From assembly GCF_028882275.1 (NCBI RefSeq), contig NZ_JARBUT010000001.1, forward strand, positions 868,001 through 932,000: a DNA stretch of 64,000 nt. Direction: 5' to 3'. This document shows, one piece after another, positions 16,667 through 24,848 of the stretch. Each line of letters begins with the position of its first letter. The first letter of the stretch is position 1. The notes under the pieces were generated by a model. The model saw only the letters and a program-made list of their open reading frames with translations. It was not told the origin of the DNA and ran no database searches. The position numbers were made by a program, and so were the translations under genes. The DNA is from Nocardiopsis sp. N85 (lineage in GTDB: Bacteria > Actinomycetota > Actinomycetes > Streptosporangiales > Streptosporangiaceae).

Positions 16667-16704
16667 GTGAGAACCCCCGGACCGGACCGCCCGGGGGTTC
16701 TCAC
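16667..16704 (+). terminator. Terminator hairpin after the XRE-DUF397 pair
   Basis: A 14-bp perfect inverted repeat (16667-16680 with 16691-16704) with a 10-base loop begins 12 bases after the DUF397 stop. It also argues against translating the next gene from the in-frame GTG at 16667. Confidence 0.75.
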
Positions 16705-16733
16705 ATGTCGCGAACCCGGTGTACTCTCGCGCC

Positions 16734-16772
16734 ATGACGATCAGGAAGGGCGGTCTCCGCCCGGGCCGTTGA
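16734..16772 (+). CDS. Possible 12-residue leader peptide
   Basis: The ATG at 16734 opens MTIRKGGLRPGR and stops at TGA 16770-16772. That TGA overlaps the TTG start proposed for the large HEAT-like gene (TTGA). A TACTCT box at 16722-16727 would start transcription very near this ATG, so the peptide could be read from a leaderless mRNA and deliver ribosomes to the TTG. This is inferred from sequence only. Confidence 0.3.
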   Translation: MTIRKGGLRPGR

Positions 16773-19700
16773 GCCCCACCGAGCCGACGCAGGCGTCGGC
16801 CCCCTCACTTCTCTCCACCGTCGAACCCCTCTCCGCGACCGCGCGGACGCGCGCCCTGTCGGACTTCGCCCGCCGCCGCGCGGGAACCCCGGAACTCACC
16901 GCGATCATCCGCGACCTTGAGGCCCACACTCGGGGAACCGGGTTCGCCCCGCACGCCCAACGTGCGTTCGCCTCCCAGCTGGCCCTGGTCTCCCGCGACC
17001 TCGACGCGGTCGTCCGCCACCTCGCCTCGCCCCACCACGATCTGCGCCGGGCCGCCCTGCGCGCGGTCCGCGCGCTCCCCGTCCCCGACGAGGCCGTGAT
17101 CCCCGCCCTGCGCGACGCCCCCACCGAGCTGCGCCGCGCCCTCTACCGCACCCTGCTCCACGCCCGCCGCACGGCCCTCGCGGACCGACTCCTGTCCCGC
17201 GTCCACCACGATCACGGCGCACCCGAGGCCGCCGCCCTCCTGCCCGCCTGCTCCTCGCGGGTCGTCGCCGCGCGCCTGCCCGACCTCGCCCACGCGGTCC
17301 TGTCCTGGCGGCGGCTCGCCCGCCGCCACCCGGACACCCTCGTCGCCTACCTGCACGCCCTGCGCGAGGCGGGCCGCGACGACGAACCCGCCGACCGCAC
17401 CCGCCTCCTGCGCGCCCTGGACCCGCTCCGCCCCGAGGCGGTCGCCGACCTGGCGACCGGGCACCCGGGGCGGCGGTACCACGCCTACCCGCACGCCGCC
17501 CGCGTCCACGACCGAACGCACGGAGACGACGAGCGCTTCTACCCGACCCGCTACCCGGCGACGGTCTACGGGGACCGCAGCGTCCGCTCCCTGATGCGCG
17601 CCATGCGCGGTTCCCCCGAAGCGGCCCGCCCCGTACTCCGCGCCATGGAACCCGAGGTCCGCGCCCGCTACCTGGAGGCCTTTCTGGAGCGCCGCGACAC
17701 CCTGCGGATCCCGTCGCTCACGGCCAACCTCGACCTCCTCGCCCCACGACGGGCCGAACAGGAGGCACGGTCCGCTCTGGAACGCCTCCGCCGTTCACGG
17801 CGCAACGGACGCCGCGACGACCCGAACCTCGACCTGGACGTCCTCGCGTTCCTGCCCCACGCCGAGGTGGCCGGGACGCTCACCGAAGCCGCCGGCTCAG
17901 GTGACGTCGACCGACGCGCCCGCGGCCTGGCCGCCCTGCTCAAGGCGACCGTGCGCACGGGTGATCCGGCGCTGATCGCCGACGTCCTCCTCACCCGTGC
18001 CGAACGGGCCCGCGCCGAACGCGACCCGGTGCGCCGCGTCCTGCTGAGCGCCGTCGCCGACACACCCCCGCCCCTGCTCGAAGCGTCGCTCCCGGCCCTG
18101 GAACGGTTGCTCGCCGACACCGTCCAGGCCCGCGACACGAGTGCCGACACCCGCCGGGCCCTGCGCGACATCGCCGCCCGCCTGCTCCGCCACCCCGGCA
18201 CCGGCACCGCGCTCACCGCGTGGGCGCTGGAGGTCTACACGCGCCTGGTGGAGCGCTTCGGCGGCGAGGGCCTGGGGGAGCCCGGCCGCCCTCGCGCGAA
18301 CCCTCCCTGGTGGACGTCGCGGAGGCGGGGGCGCGGCGTCGACCTGGAACCCCACCTGGACCAGGTACTGCCCCGAGGAACGGAACACGAGCTGTACCGG
18401 CGCCTGACCCCCGTGCTGGCCGCCGCCCGCGAACGCGGCGATCACCTGCCCACCGTCCTGGTGGTCCGCGAACTGGGCCGCCGGGCCCGGAACCTCCCGG
18501 AACTGCGCGCGCACCTGCGTGCGGCCGTATCGGAGACCGGGGATCCGGCCGTGGCCGGCCCGGCGGCCCGGCTCCACCTGTCCGGACCGGACGCGGCGCG
18601 GGAGGCGCTCCGCCTGACCGGGACCGACCCCGACACCGTGCGGATCCCCCGGGTCTGGCGTCTCCTCGCCCGAGAGCACGGCACCGACGCCGTCCTCACG
18701 GCCGTGACGACGGCGACCCGGGTCCGTGACGGGCGCGCCTGGATTCCGGACGTCGACCGGCGGGCGGCCCGGCTCTGGCCGCTCCGCCTGACCAGTGCCG
18801 TCGCCGAACACCTGAGCGTCATCGCCGCCGATCCCGCGCTGAGCGTCGACGACCGGGAACGGGCCCTGCTCCGCCTGGGCGACCTGCCCCGGACGACGCA
18901 CCGGTTGTGGCCCTACCGGACCACCGAGGACATCGTGCTGCGGGAGGCCGCCCTGCGCGCCCTCGGCCGGAACCACGACCGCGACCTGGAATCCCTCCTG
19001 GACGCCATGGACGGTCCCCAGTCCCGGGCCGCCGCGCCGGCGCTGTCCCTCAGGGCCCTGGCCACACCGCCTTCGGAGCTGGGTCCGGCCCTGGCCCGGG
19101 CCCTGGACGGCCCGGCCAAGGTCACCGTCCGCAAGACCGCCGCCCGCCTCCTGGCACACCATCGCCCGCCCGGCGCCGTGGAACACCTGGCCCGGATCCT
19201 GGCCGCCGACGGGCCGCACCGCGACGTGCGCGCCGCCGTGATCGGTGCCCTCGCCCGGTGCCTGGACGACCCTGCGGCGCTGCCCGCACTGGCCGAGCAC
19301 GCCCCGGGGTTCGCGGACACCGAGACCCGGCTCGCCCTCCTGGGCCCCGGGCCCCTGCGCTGCCCGCCGGAGCACCGGGCGGCGATGGCCGCGCTGGTGG
19401 CCTCGTTGCCCGAGGCGGAGGAGACCCACTGGCGGTTCGGGTACTGGACCTCCCGCTGGGCCTCCTGGGGTGGTGCGCCCGACGTCGACGCCCTCAACGA
19501 CGCCGCGTGCGACATGGGACGGCCCTTCGGCCGGACCCGTGTCGGGCTCCACGCCCTGTGGCGTGGGGGGATCGCCCTCGACCGGGCGCACGAGGTGGTG
19601 GACCGCCTGCTCGATCTCGTTCCGGGACCGTCGGCGGGGCCACTCGTCCGCGTTCGGGAGGGAGCGGACACACCGCATCGCCGGCTGACCGTGCTGCTGG

Positions 19701-20221
19701 GGGAATTCGCTTCGGCGGTGTACACGGGGGAGCGGGACGACCCCGGCCGGTTCGACGGTCGTGTGCGGTCGGTCGTGCGCTCCCTGGAACGCCGGGACGA
19801 GTATCTGCCCGAGGCGATGGACCTCGTCATCGGACGCGTGGAGTCGCGGATCGGCCGCGACGGGGGTCGGGTACGGCCCGCGGAGATCACGGGACTCCTC
19901 CTGTGGTACCTGCGCCTGGGCTCGCGCACGGCCCACTTCGGCGACGACGTCCCCCTCCGTCCGGTGAAGGCGCTGTGCGACCGCTGGGGGCGCGACGAGA
20001 TCCCCTGGGACGTCCGGGCCGAGATCGTCCGGGGCCTCCTGCGGGCCGCGACGGAGGAGGAGCGGATCCGCCCTGCGGCGGGAGTGCTCGCCCTGGCGCT
20101 CGTCCGACGCGCCCTGACCGAGTGCGGACCGGCCGACCCCTGGCCCGAGCTGCTCACCCGCATCGCGGATCCGGGCGACCCCGCCCTGCGCGCCGCCGCC
20201 TGGCGGGTGGCCGCCGACTGA
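16769..20221 (+). CDS. Giant HEAT-like repeat protein, paralog A
   Basis: A protein of about 1150 residues built from Leu/Ala/Arg-rich amphipathic helices in the pattern of HEAT/ARM repeats, for example HHDLRRAALRAVRALPVPDE and REAALRALGRNHDRDLESLL. No catalytic motif, signal peptide or membrane helix is visible. It is homologous along its length to the next gene: shared landmarks are RAGTPEL, LHARRTALADRLL, AAALLPACSSRVVAARLPDL, RTGDPAL and GRPFGRTRVGLHAL. The TTG at 16769 is chosen because it gives an N-terminus matching the paralog; the frame is open back to 16667 through the upstream terminator. It is probably a scaffold. I know of no assigned function. Confidence 0.8.
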   Translation: MSPTEPTQASAPSLLSTVEPLSATARTRALSDFARRRAGTPELTAIIRDLEAHTRGTGFAPHAQRAFASQLALVSRDLDAVVRHLASPHHDLRRAALRAVRALPVPDEAVIPALRDAPTELRRALYRTLLHARRTALADRLLSRVHHDHGAPEAAALLPACSSRVVAARLPDLAHAVLSWRRLARRHPDTLVAYLHALREAGRDDEPADRTRLLRALDPLRPEAVADLATGHPGRRYHAYPHAARVHDRTHGDDERFYPTRYPATVYGDRSVRSLMRAMRGSPEAARPVLRAMEPEVRARYLEAFLERRDTLRIPSLTANLDLLAPRRAEQEARSALERLRRSRRNGRRDDPNLDLDVLAFLPHAEVAGTLTEAAGSGDVDRRARGLAALLKATVRTGDPALIADVLLTRAERARAERDPVRRVLLSAVADTPPPLLEASLPALERLLADTVQARDTSADTRRALRDIAARLLRHPGTGTALTAWALEVYTRLVERFGGEGLGEPGRPRANPPWWTSRRRGRGVDLEPHLDQVLPRGTEHELYRRLTPVLAAARERGDHLPTVLVVRELGRRARNLPELRAHLRAAVSETGDPAVAGPAARLHLSGPDAAREALRLTGTDPDTVRIPRVWRLLAREHGTDAVLTAVTTATRVRDGRAWIPDVDRRAARLWPLRLTSAVAEHLSVIAADPALSVDDRERALLRLGDLPRTTHRLWPYRTTEDIVLREAALRALGRNHDRDLESLLDAMDGPQSRAAAPALSLRALATPPSELGPALARALDGPAKVTVRKTAARLLAHHRPPGAVEHLARILAADGPHRDVRAAVIGALARCLDDPAALPALAEHAPGFADTETRLALLGPGPLRCPPEHRAAMAALVASLPEAEETHWRFGYWTSRWASWGGAPDVDALNDAACDMGRPFGRTRVGLHALWRGGIALDRAHEVVDRLLDLVPGPSAGPLVRVREGADTPHRRLTVLLGEFASAVYTGERDDPGRFDGRVRSVVRSLERRDEYLPEAMDLVIGRVESRIGRDGGRVRPAEITGLLLWYLRLGSRTAHFGDDVPLRPVKALCDRWGRDEIPWDVRAEIVRGLLRAATEEERIRPAAGVLALALVRRALTECGPADPWPELLTRIADPGDPALRAAAWRVAAD

Positions 20222-20559: not shown

Positions 20560-23500
20560 GTGACCGACCTCCCCTCCGTCGAGGACCTGCTCGCCGCCAC
20601 CGCCGACCTGTCCCACCGCGACCGGATGGCTCGCACCGCCGCCCTGGCCCGGGAGCACGCGGGCACCCCGGAACTGTCCGACCTCCTGGAACGGCTGCGC
20701 ACCGGCCGCCACGGCCCCCTCGCACTGCACATGGCGATCGCCGCCCGCGACACCGCCGCCTTCGCCGCCGTCCTGTCCGGCCCCGACCAGGAGTCGCGCC
20801 GCCGCGCCCTGCTCCGGACCTGGCCCGGGGTCGGCGACGACGCCCTCGCCGCCGCTGTGGACGACGCCGCCTCGGCGGTGCGCCGCGAGCTCTACCTCAC
20901 CCTGTTCCACACCCGGCGCGAAGCCCTCGCCGACCGGCTGCTGCCCGCCGTCCGTCGCGACCACGGCGACTTCGAGGCCGCCGCCCTGCTCCCCGCCTGT
21001 TCCGCGCGCACCGTCGCCGCCCGCCTGCCCGACCTCGCCTACGCCGTGCGCGCCCGGGGGCGGCTGGCCCGACGTCATCCCGGCATCCTCCTCGACCACA
21101 TGCGCGCCTTCCGCGACGCCCCGCCCCCGGGCCTGGTCTGGCCCCGCGACGTGCTCCCGCTCCTGGCCGCCCTGGACCCGATCGCCCCCGGCGCGCTCCT
21201 GGACCTCCTCGGTCCCCTCCGGGATCCGGAACTCCTCGCGGAACTGCCTCGGGTCCGCGACCTGGGGGAGGAGTCCTCGGCGGTGCCCCGCTACCCCGAG
21301 GCCTTCCCCCGCCTTTTCGACCACACCCGCGCCGAGAGGGAACTCTTGGACGCGATCGCCCACGACCCGACCGAGGCGCTGCGGGTGCTCACCGCCATGC
21401 CCCGCCCCCTGGCCGCGACCTACCTGAAGCGTCTCACCGGACACGGCACCGCGCTCCTGCCGTTCCTGGACCTGCTGCCCCCCGCCCGTGCCGAGGCCGA
21501 GGCCGAGCGGATCCTCGCCGTCCTGGCCGACCGACGCGAGCGGGGGACCACGGCCGGCGACCCCCACGCCGACCTCGACGCCGCCGCCTTCCTGCCCCGG
21601 GCACGGGCCCGGGAGATCTTGGACCGGGCGGCCGACGCCGGCGATCCCGAGCGCCGTGCCCGGGCGCTGACCCGCCTCATGGAGGCCGCCGCCCGCACCG
21701 GGGATCCGGCCCTGCTCGCGGAGGTCGCCTCCGCCCGGACGAACCGGGCCCGCGCGGAACGGGATCAGGTCCGCGCCGCCCTCCTGGCCGGGCTGACCCG
21801 TGTTCCGGTCCCCCTCCTGGCCGCGGCCGCCGGGTTCGACGCCGTCGGCCCCGACGCCGGAACCTCGTTCCCGCACGCCCTGCTCGACGACACCGCCACC
21901 ACACCCGACACCTCCACGGCGACCCGGGTGGCGTTGCGGGTCCTCGCCGCACGCCTCCTCACCCACCCGGACACCCGCGACCTCCCCCGGGCGCGGGCCT
22001 GGGCGGTGGAGGTGCAGGCCCGCCTCATCGAGGTCTTCGGGGAACGCGGCCTCCAAGTGCATGTCCACAAGGAACTCCGGGGGCTGGCCGCCGGTCGGCT
22101 CCGCGAACCCGACACCCTCCTGCCTCCTCTGGAGCGGATCCTCCCCCCGGGGCTCGAACACGCCCTGTACGCCCGGATCGCCCCGCACACGGCCGCCGCC
22201 GGGGCCCGCCGCGATACCGCGCCCGCCCTGCTCCTGGCCCGGCAACTCGGTGCCCGGGCCCACGACCTCCCCCGCCTCCAGGACGCCCTGCGCGCGATCA
22301 TCCTCGCCGACCCCCGCTCCTCCGACGCCGGACGCGCGGCCCGTCTGCACCTCAACGGCGTCCCCGCCCGACGGACCCCCTCCGGGCCCGGGGACGAGGG
22401 CACCGCAGCCGATCCCACCGACGGACGAGACGAGGTCCTGCGCCGCGCCCTGGCGTTGTTCGCCGCGGACCCCGCCACCGTCCTGACCGAACCGGTGTGG
22501 GCGGTCCTGGCGGACCGTGCCGCCCCCGGCGTGGTGAGCGGCGCCCTGGACGTCATCGTTCGGGCGGCGGCCGAGGACGGGCACCGGTGGGCGGAGTTCC
22601 CTCGGTGGACCACCCGCACCTGGCCCGGACACCTGGTGGACCGCCTCGCCGACCGGCTGACGGTTCTGGCCTCCGACCCCGACCGGCCGGTCTACGAGCG
22701 CGCCGACCTCGTCCACCGACTCGCCCGCCTCCCCGGTACGGCCGACCGCCTGGCCGCCCTCTCGGAACGCGAGACCTCGACCGAACTCCGCCCGTACCTC
22801 GTGGGCGCTCTGGGCCGCGTGGACACGCCCGAGCGCGCCGTGACCGCCCTGGAGGGCCTCCTCCACGGGCCCCACGCCCACCTCGCCGTCCGGGCGCTGA
22901 CCCGGCACGCCGCGTACCTGCCCCCGTCCCGGTCGCGTCCGCTGATCGCACGTCTGCTGACCGGACCCGGCGCGATCATCGCCCGTAAGGAGGCGGCCCG
23001 GCTGGCGGTGGCGCACCGGCCACCGGGCGTCGTCGACGACCTTCTCCGCGCACTCGCCGACACCGACCTCCACCGTGACGCCAGGGCGGCCGTGGTCGGC
23101 GCACTGACCCGCTTGACGGACGGCGCGCCCGACGTCGTGGAACGCTTGGCCGCACGGGTCCCCGAGTTCGACGCCCCCGAGATCCGACGCGAGGCGCTCG
23201 CCGTGGAGCCCCTCGACCTGCCGCCCGCCCATCGCACCGCCTTCGCGCGTTTCGTGATCGCGCTGCCCGACCTCGCCGACGCCGATCCGGCGCTCATGAC
23301 GGCACGCGCCCGCTGGTACCCGTGGTGCCCGGACCTCGTCGACGACACGGTGGCGGCGGTGACCGATCTCGCCCGGCCCTTCGGCCGGACCCTGCCGGTG
23401 CTGTCGGCCCTGCTGGACTCCGGCTCGATCGACGGCCGTCTCCCGGCCCTCCTCATCGCCCTGGCGGACGCCGACGCGGCCGACGCCACCAGCCGCCCGA

Positions 23501-24063
23501 TCCCGGTGCGGCCGCGGGTCCGTGAACCCCACGAGACGTTCCAGAGAAGGATCTCCACCCTCGCCTGGAGCGTCCACCGGCGTCTGGAGCGGTCCACCGG
23601 TGCGCGCCGGTCGTCCCTGGCCAGGGGGATCGCGCCGGTGATCGACCGTCTGGGCGATCGTCCCGAACACCTGGAGCACGTCGTCCGGCTCACCGAGGCC
23701 TCCCTCGTGGAGGACGATCCGGATGGCGCCCTCGCGTCCGCCGAGGCCCTCATCGGGATCCTGGCCCGGCACCCCCTGTACACGATGGTCCACCTGGACC
23801 CGGTGACCCGGACGGTACTGCGGGCCTGGGCCCCGGAACCGGCGTCCGCGCCGATCGAGGCGCGGGTACGCGACCTCGTGGCGCGCTCCCGGCAACGGGG
23901 CGACCACCGGGGAGTCCTCGACGGGCTGGTCGCGGTCGGGGCCGTCGGTATGCGCGGCTGGCTGGAAGGATGGGTCGAGCCCTGGCCGGGCCTGTTGGTG
24001 GAGGCGGGGGAGTCACCGCACGCGGCGGTACGGGAGCGGGCACGGCTGACGGCGGTCTCCTGA
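20560..24063 (+). CDS. Giant HEAT-like repeat protein, paralog B
   Basis: A 1167-residue paralog of the preceding gene with the same helical repeat architecture (SAVRRELYLTLFHTRREALA; AAALLPACSARTVAARLPDL; ARPFGRTLPVLSALLDSGSI). By eye the two are roughly 35-45 percent identical in the N-terminal third and still alignable at the C-terminus. No enzymatic motif or membrane segment is seen. The GTG at 20560 is chosen because TDLPSVEDLLAATADL then aligns with the N-terminus of paralog A; the ORF otherwise runs far upstream in frame without coding character. A weak AGAGAG box precedes it. Tandem placement suggests duplication, and possibly a hetero-complex. Confidence 0.82.
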   Translation: MTDLPSVEDLLAATADLSHRDRMARTAALAREHAGTPELSDLLERLRTGRHGPLALHMAIAARDTAAFAAVLSGPDQESRRRALLRTWPGVGDDALAAAVDDAASAVRRELYLTLFHTRREALADRLLPAVRRDHGDFEAAALLPACSARTVAARLPDLAYAVRARGRLARRHPGILLDHMRAFRDAPPPGLVWPRDVLPLLAALDPIAPGALLDLLGPLRDPELLAELPRVRDLGEESSAVPRYPEAFPRLFDHTRAERELLDAIAHDPTEALRVLTAMPRPLAATYLKRLTGHGTALLPFLDLLPPARAEAEAERILAVLADRRERGTTAGDPHADLDAAAFLPRARAREILDRAADAGDPERRARALTRLMEAAARTGDPALLAEVASARTNRARAERDQVRAALLAGLTRVPVPLLAAAAGFDAVGPDAGTSFPHALLDDTATTPDTSTATRVALRVLAARLLTHPDTRDLPRARAWAVEVQARLIEVFGERGLQVHVHKELRGLAAGRLREPDTLLPPLERILPPGLEHALYARIAPHTAAAGARRDTAPALLLARQLGARAHDLPRLQDALRAIILADPRSSDAGRAARLHLNGVPARRTPSGPGDEGTAADPTDGRDEVLRRALALFAADPATVLTEPVWAVLADRAAPGVVSGALDVIVRAAAEDGHRWAEFPRWTTRTWPGHLVDRLADRLTVLASDPDRPVYERADLVHRLARLPGTADRLAALSERETSTELRPYLVGALGRVDTPERAVTALEGLLHGPHAHLAVRALTRHAAYLPPSRSRPLIARLLTGPGAIIARKEAARLAVAHRPPGVVDDLLRALADTDLHRDARAAVVGALTRLTDGAPDVVERLAARVPEFDAPEIRREALAVEPLDLPPAHRTAFARFVIALPDLADADPALMTARARWYPWCPDLVDDTVAAVTDLARPFGRTLPVLSALLDSGSIDGRLPALLIALADADAADATSRPIPVRPRVREPHETFQRRISTLAWSVHRRLERSTGARRSSLARGIAPVIDRLGDRPEHLEHVVRLTEASLVEDDPDGALASAEALIGILARHPLYTMVHLDPVTRTVLRAWAPEPASAPIEARVRDLVARSRQRGDHRGVLDGLVAVGAVGMRGWLEGWVEPWPGLLVEAGESPHAAVRERARLTAVS

Positions 24064-24078
24064 GGGGCCGGACCGGCC

Positions 24079-24300
24079 CTACCGCTCCTTCAGCTCGTCC
24101 ACGGAGACGGTCTCGCGCAGGAAGCCCCGCAGCTCCAGGAAGTTCGTCAGGTAGGCGCGGTGCTCGTCGCAGGCCGTCCACACCTTGCGCCGGTCCGGGG
24201 TGTGCACCTTCGGGTTGTTCCAGACCAGGGCCCACACCGCCGCCTCGCGGCAGTCGCGCCGCGAGCAGATCGCGGTCTCGGCCCGTTCCTCATCGCCCAA
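24079..24300 (-). CDS. Small conserved Cys/His protein, probably zinc-binding
   Basis: A 73-residue protein with TAICSRRDCREAAVWALVWN, HTPDRRKVWTACDEH, and LTNFLELRGFLRETV. The C-x4-C and C-x2-H pairs suggest one zinc site. The same pattern occurs in a small protein conserved in streptomycetes and relatives that is often mislabelled acetone carboxylase; its function is unknown. The TTG at 24300 is preceded by GAGGGGG at a suitable distance. The frame is open further upstream, but that part would run through the hairpins of the candidate 6C RNA, so it is not used. The RNA lies immediately upstream in the same direction. Confidence 0.72.
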   Translation of the reverse strand: MGDEERAETAICSRRDCREAAVWALVWNNPKVHTPDRRKVWTACDEHRAYLTNFLELRGFLRETVSVDELKER

Positions 24301-24375
24301 TGCCGACCCCCTCGGAGAAAAACCTCCCGCCCGGTCAAAGGGCGGTAACGGCAGGGTAGGGGGCCCGGCCCCGAA

Positions 24376-24490
24376 AAGACAAAGGCGACGCCGGGTGGTT
24401 ACGGGGGCAAACCACCCGGCGTCGCACACGATGTTCCGACGGGGGCTCGAAACATCGTTCCGCGCTTCGACGGGGGACCGAAGCGCCAAG
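24376..24490 (-). ncRNA. Candidate 6C small RNA, three C-loop hairpins
   Basis: Read on the minus strand, three consecutive stem-loops each show five C in the loop. Stem 1 has 8 bp (24462-24469 with 24479-24486), loop GTCCCCCGT. Stem 2 has 11 bp with one mismatch (24429-24439 with 24447-24457), loop GCCCCCG. Stem 3 has 16 bp, perfect (24385-24400 with 24410-24425), loop TGCCCCCGT, and is followed by a T-rich stretch, so it doubles as an intrinsic terminator. Two C-rich hairpins plus a terminator are the description of the actinobacterial 6C RNA class. Upstream, TTGACG (24521-24526) and TACATT (24495-24500) could be the promoter. The match to the family is by eye and needs a covariance-model search. 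Confidence 0.7.
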
Positions 24491-24494
24491 ACCC

Positions 24495-24526
24495 AATGTA
24501 CACCGACCCCCCCGGGGGTACGTCAA
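24495..24526 (-). promoter_or_regulatory. Candidate promoter of the 6C-like RNA
   Basis: On the minus strand, TTGACG (24521-24526) lies 20 bases from TACATT (24495-24500), or 18 bases from the alternative TGTACA (24497-24502). The spacer is a C/G run. A start of transcription near 24488 would give an RNA of about 110 bases. Confidence 0.4.
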
Positions 24527-24848
24527 GAGTCGGTTACGAGGTTGTCTCGGGAGAGTCCCGCCCTCTCTGGGGCTTTAGTCCCAGGTCAGTACGTATACCG
24601 CCATTCCAGGGGCCTTTCGGGGACGTGACGGAAGAGACGTCCATGCCCTCGTGGTCATCGGAATCCCAAGAGGGTCCAAAGTCCTTATCCATGCCCGGTC
24701 ACGTGTCTCCTCCGCTCCCTTTCCCGGTCGGAGCGGCCGGGACGTCGCCTTCGTGCGACGGAACGTGTGACGGAGGGGGATAACGGGGAGGCAGATGAGC
24801 GGAGGTCGGCCCGTCGGGCCGCGCGCAACCGATCAGCAGGGGGTACAC
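24527..24848. other. Intergenic region upstream of dodecin
   Basis: About 320 bases lie between the candidate RNA promoter and the dodecin gene. Open frames here are short and lack normal third-position bias. The stretch from about 24540 to 24690 is less GC-rich than its surroundings and is likely to carry promoters. No further gene is visible. Confidence 0.45.

Follow-up and report, generated by a model that had tools for sequence, protein, structure and literature searches.

A putative small RNA with three C-rich loops in Nocardiopsis represents a family separate from 6C and common to Streptomyces

The closest described counterparts of the RNA considered here are likewise actinobacterial sRNAs with C-rich hairpin loops, in the first place 6C (RF01066), known as B11 in mycobacteria. 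In an excerpt of PMC8388888 6C is defined as two stem-loops with six or more Cs, and a part of PMC10470900 describes that B11 (6C) acts on ribosome-binding sites with G tracts and represses via a G6 tract, either of its C-loops being sufficient. Two expressed and conserved sRNAs of Streptomyces, scr5583 and scr1434, also carry a C-rich loop according to an excerpt of PMC3765725; they are named for flanking genes other than those of the present locus, and it is by this description that we set them apart. Finally, Streptomyces RNA 3202 (Scr3202, RF02833) resembles the present RNA in that it combines a hairpin with a terminator hairpin and has C-loops on both.

In the window, i.e. the whole stretch of 64,000 nucleotides analysed here, a minus-strand segment (24374..24486) very probably constitutes a gene for a small regulatory RNA, the transcription of which we infer. 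The putative sRNA is about 105-115 nt long, its 5' end being placed according to the -10 box, and contains three C-loop hairpins. Hairpin 1 (24462..24486, minus strand) has an 8-bp stem and the loop GUCCCCCGU, hairpin 2 (24429..24457, minus strand) an 11-bp stem and the loop GCCCCCG, and hairpin 3 (24385..24425, minus strand) a 16-bp terminator stem and the loop UGCCCCCGU. These stem lengths and the CCCCCG in every loop had been described in the initial annotation and are borne out by the sequence as well as by the predicted fold, which consists of the same three hairpins (MFE -76.8 kcal/mol, z -5.39, none of 200 shuffles equally stable). Hairpin 3 had also been described as a terminator with a T-rich tail; the terminator stands, whereas the tail CUUUGUCUUUU (24374..24384, minus strand) is U-rich and forms only an imperfect U-tract. 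Three C5-loop hairpins with stems of at least 8 bp within 130 nt are found at this sole place in the 64-kb window, and such triples occur in none of 30 Markov copies of it.

A DNA search of 60 genomes, including that of the window, located the element in all 37 same-genus genomes (worst E 2.2e-42) and also in G037, a genome of another family, with 80% identity. All 38 sequences of an alignment have CCCCCG in all three loops. The invariant columns are concentrated in the loops (24 of 25), followed by the stems (42 of 70), while the linkers and the tail have none (0 of 32). Pairing is kept in 99.7% of the 1328 pairing cells, a value reached by none of 500 shuffles, and 7 of the 35 pairs change on both sides, again with 0/500 shuffles as high; one of the five measures, which counts additional pair types, did not exceed the shuffles (132/500). 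Five of the 11 pairs of hairpin 2 are altered on both sides, and single positions of the alignment often show G-U pairs (UG:10, GU:10, UG:9). The stems of the three-hairpin form are backed by covariation. In 30 loci from 41 genomes of the window's family the loops contain 5/5/5 Cs in 29 cases and 4/4/5 in one (L099). The three-loop count given at the outset was right and is typical of the window's family.

R1, a model built on the three-hairpin RNA, was run against 394 class genomes. It matches all 41 from the window's family with E <= 4.1e-16, a number that includes the genomes used in building the model, and 104 of the 394 genomes in all at E <= 0.01. The weaker matches examined correspond to a two-hairpin form, which comprises hairpin 1 and the terminator hairpin, each with a CCCCCG loop, and in which hairpin 2 is missing; here the terminator loop already counts as one of the two C-loops. 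This form, too, is backed by covariation, 8 of its 21 pairs varying on both sides. A second model (R2) was built from an alignment of the two-hairpin form that held no sequence from the window's family, and the window element matches it with 64.5 bits (E 2.6e-8), which places both forms in one family. R2 finds a single place in each of 141 of the 394 class genomes, covering 52 of 137 genera. The Streptomyces-type family (that of G057) is matched throughout (121 of 121 genomes, 17 of 17 genera) and the window's order in 38 of 41 genomes, the three genomes without a match all belonging to one family (f3), while across the phylum the matches were confined to 10 of 296 genomes, all ten from the same class. 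The additional weaker matches of R2 in G023 and G035 appear to be single unrelated terminators and were discarded.

A pattern scan of the named genomes gave at least 118 loci, at least 101 of them two-hairpin, at least 16 three-hairpin and at least one of another kind. Among the 80 titles listed, the 13 titled three-hairpin loci belong to Nocardiopsis, Marinitenerispora, Nonomuraea, [Actinomadura] parvosata, Microbispora and two MAGs, whose titles say Streptosporangiaceae and Actinomycetota and nothing finer; those with two hairpins come from Streptomyces, Kitasatospora, Streptacidiphilus, Actinacidiphila and Jiangella, among others. The RNA and its neighbours make Nocardiopsis the most likely genus of the window as well. 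Two loci (L118 and L238) have a hairpin 1 without a C-loop and retain the terminator C-loop. In 65 loci the flanks of hairpin 2 are on average 0.57 identical to those of hairpin 1 (best 0.75), as compared to 0.34 for random hairpins and 0.30 between hairpins 1 and 3, which is suggestive, and only suggestive, of a duplication of hairpin 1 as the source of hairpin 2.

The neighbourhood of the RNA was compared by tblastn. Among the matches listed, the gene order is dodecin(-), DUF3099(+), RNA(+), a gene for a CxxxxC protein(+) and moaA(-), with local losses: DUF3099 was not detected in the window or its genus, dodecin not in Streptomyces-type loci, and the CxxxxC gene not in Jiangella-type loci. 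Pfam assigns dodecin, DUF3099 and MoaA to the respective products and gives no match for the CxxxxC protein; moaA is SCO1821 in an excerpt of PMC4021200. Two of the conserved neighbours are present in the window itself, so that the synteny agrees with the model match: downstream of the RNA lies the CxxxxC gene (24079..24300, minus strand, 73 aa, start TTG at 24300-24298), and on its other side the divergent dodecin gene (PF07311; 24849..25058, plus strand), both of which are candidate local targets. Because the neighbourhood is conserved, we regard the two- and three-hairpin RNAs as orthologous. Among the matches listed, Streptomyces-type loci and those of the window's genus have the CxxxxC gene closely behind the RNA and in the same orientation, the distance being short in Streptomyces. 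In L204 it is 4 kb from the RNA, and in 11 loci among the matches listed (L048, L109-L111, L116-L119, L123, L126 and L233) the RNA is followed by the convergent moaA, no co-directional gene being detected. Since the RNA is kept where the CxxxxC gene is missing, it is independent of the gene behind it. One locus (L019) is rearranged; there dodecin is about 1 kb further off and the conserved upstream block is lost, with the -35 and -10 boxes retained.

The promoter proposed earlier agrees with the sequence: a -35 box TTGACG (24521..24526, minus strand) and a -10 box TACATT (24495..24500, minus strand) precede the element, separated by a spacer of 20 bp compared to the usual 17. All 66 upstream variants of the three-hairpin form share this layout, TTGA(C/T)N - 20 bp - TANNN(T/G). 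Promoters of the MerR family typically have such long spacers, with a dyad at the centre. A partial dyad spans the spacer here (24498..24521, minus strand), making it a possible operator, and 8 of the 66 variants have a perfect dyad, GTACACCG N8 CGGTGTAC. Further upstream, the conserved element GGGACTCTCCCGAGACAACnTCGTAAC (24533..24559, minus strand), whose core CGAGA..TCGTRA is present in 58 of the 66 variants, is a probable regulator site. The Streptomyces copies differ from the window form in their upstream region, where AAGCTCA is repeated among the matches listed. In Streptomyces-type loci such as L128, L133 and L134 the conserved repeats AAGCTCAAGAAAAGCTCAGATCAAT lie upstream of the RNA, about 11 bp apart, an arrangement resembling a response-regulator site.

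No Rfam family reached its cut-off in the window or in five loci of the RNA (L006 and L045-L048), the latter comparison also taking in two unrelated weak hits. The best Rfam alignment of the window RNA is to Scr3202 (33.3 bits, E 0.0034), and membership in that family was rejected as the score is under the cut-off of 52; L045-L048, a Streptomyces-type copy among them, gave no match up to E 0.05. Weak Scr3202 matches were also seen elsewhere in the same genome (L036 and L037). The main texts searched contain no record of the RNA as scr1819-scr1822 or together with moaA or dodecin, and the unnamed core intergenic regions mentioned in a part of PMC11678152 may include it. Judged by models, stems and synteny, the RNA is best described as a member of a family that is absent from Rfam, separate from 6C and common to Streptomyces.

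The comparison with 6C deserves special attention as the element had initially been called 6C-like, with the Rfam covariance model as the proposed check. RF01066 (cut-off 47 bits) does not match the window locus and is also missing among the weak hits there, and in the whole genome it gives five weak places, all away from this locus. This lack of a covariance-model hit is one half of what the initial annotation had named as refuting it. As a guess about the mode of action the term survives; as a statement of family membership it does not. The window RNA has three hairpins with five Cs each (38 of 38 aligned sequences), not two with six or more, and it differs in its CCCCCG(U) loops, its other stems and its dodecin/moaA locus. 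6C is located beside a gene which we take to be ssd/CpaE-like, and the window RNA shares no such locus. In 11 of 19 genomes RF01066 exceeds its cut-off, and in G037, G047 and others the match lies apart from this RNA. At E <= 0.001 it matches 28 of 28 genomes from the other genera of the window's family, each of which holds this RNA too, as opposed to 0 of 13 within the genus. A loss of 6C from the genus, suggested by these numbers, was overturned by a diverged 6C. The ssd/CpaE-like gene turned up in all 8 genomes of the genus that were searched for it, and near it, in all except G008, there is a diverged 6C with three C-loop hairpins (stems 6-16 bp; hairpin limits looser than in the triple scan of the window and without shuffle control). 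In the window's own genome (C15) this copy lies at about 3044-3190 of L270 (minus strand); the others are L260, L261, L262, L264, L267 and L269. These copies are below the Rfam cut-off, their third loop is CGCCCCCGU, and the extra loop has the same octamer, GCCCCCGU, as the present RNA. Two unlinked three-loop RNAs thus coexist in 7 of 8 same-genus genomes, and in the window's lineage both are three-looped where relatives have two, the two-hairpin 6C of the family's other genera being represented by one locus (L247) and the published definition.

The loops of the RNA are complementary to G-rich sequences before the neighbouring genes. In the window, a GGGGG that is complementary to every C5 loop lies within the ribosome-binding site of the CxxxxC gene (24307..24311, minus strand), and dodecin has the ribosome-binding site AGGGGG (24838..24843, plus strand). 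Scored over 22 nt upstream of the start (24 nt for moaA), GGGGG preceded dodecin in 30 of 34 distinct loci of the window's genus, where GGAGG/AGGAG occurred in none; in other genera the numbers are reversed (GGGGG 1/31, GGAGG/AGGAG 24/31). Of the 31 loci of the genus that were scored for the CxxxxC gene, 20 have GGGGG and 27 have GGGG or more, the four copies without even GGGG being L010, L017, L018 and L022; this count includes L026, whose start is probably wrong, and leaves out 6 of the 37 same-genus loci that lacked the CxxxxC motif in an automated scan. Among the two-hairpin (Streptomyces-type) leaders listed, none of 11 has GGGGG before this gene. Apart from the Jiangella group, two-hairpin loci, most of them from Streptomyces, have GGGGG before moaA in 49 of 71 cases, the commonest leader being GAGGGAGGGGGCCCAC, as compared to 1 of 7 Jiangella-type and 0 of 4 three-hairpin loci. 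With a fraction of 0.68 moaA is an outlier among 13 groups of at least 12 distinct members, the others having 0-0.15, though several of these groups are probably spurious ORFs. The window baseline is 3 of 27 genes, dodecin among the three; starts were script-chosen for this baseline and for the moaA and group counts. We note that the GGGGG sites were noticed post hoc and are lineage-specific, that the genomes are not independent, and that GC-rich genomes may tolerate AGGGGG as an SD.

With an identical set of three loops, the most stable duplex formed with dodecin leaders is on average -14.4 kcal/mol within the window's genus as against -11.1 outside it, a modest gain with overlapping ranges (-17.9 to -7.4 vs. 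-16.6 to -6.9). Five leaders gave -12.7 to -19.0 against -6.3 for a canonical SD, where the control loop was shorter; matched loops shrink this gain. The sites agree with the constant C5 loops and with the action of B11 as given in a part of PMC10470900, and their complementarity indirectly supports a pairing of the C loops with G-rich ribosome-binding sites.

The element is probably a C-loop antisense sRNA. We assign a probability of about 0.6 to the reading that it acts in trans in the manner of 6C/B11, as a separate family, by masking G-rich ribosome-binding sites. An RNA of about 110 nt would be transcribed from its own promoter and end at hairpin 3; each hairpin would display the same CCCCCG(U) loop, which would pair with a G-rich ribosome-binding site and block translation, and several loops would serve as redundant or multi-target seeds. 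The middle hairpin would have been gained in the window's lineage, and likely targets would include lineage-specific neighbours, namely dodecin along with the CxxxxC gene for the window's genus and moaA for Streptomyces. Several near-identical constant loops in one RNA would also suit a multivalent decoy that titrates a protein or a G-rich RNA rather than blocking ribosome-binding sites; we consider this a minority reading, as base pairing better explains the GGGGG sites of the neighbours. The co-directional CxxxxC gene just downstream, with its short gap in Streptomyces, raises the question of a cis-acting leader or attenuator in which hairpins 1 and 2 govern read-through of hairpin 3 into that gene. 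This is unlikely because the 11 loci in which moaA follows directly have the RNA with no such gene detected behind it, and the 4-kb distance in L204, the independent folding of the three hairpins in the predicted structure and the invariant loop letters, which attenuation does not need, speak against it as well.

Hairpins are inverted repeats in DNA too, and one might see in them DNA sites, or a mere terminator of a neighbouring transcript, with no RNA at all; the frequent G-U pairs fit RNA, however, and promoter, hairpins and tail conserve their order and strand, which makes this very improbable. Hardly any more credible is that the element is a 6C with an additional hairpin. Size and C-rich loops agree, and the same-genus 6C also shows three C-loops, but RF01066 is unmatched here, the loops have five Cs each, the stems are different, and 6C sits at a locus of its own in the same genomes. 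Orthology is refuted on these grounds, although the C-loop hairpins of 6C and of this RNA may share an ancient common origin. A tentative suggestion, which we hold to be less probable than its opposite, is that two unlinked actinomycete families of C-loop sRNAs converge on a CCCCCGU/ACGGGGG code, the ribosome-binding sites beside this RNA having shifted to GGGGG in the window's lineage, with loops and local targets co-evolving.

If the preferred reading of a trans-acting sRNA is true, there is a second broadly conserved C-loop sRNA family beside 6C, i.e. a probable regulatory RNA in all 121 Streptomyces-type and all 41 window-family genomes sampled that is yet without an Rfam entry. Its candidate targets dodecin and moaA are testable in laboratory Streptomyces, and the two- and three-loop versions are a natural series for probing the role of the extra loops. 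A minor observation concerns the other genes of the window: two adjacent long open frames on the plus strand (16667-20221 and about 20700-24063) encode proteins that are similar by eye and are apparently tandem paralogues of a repeat protein.
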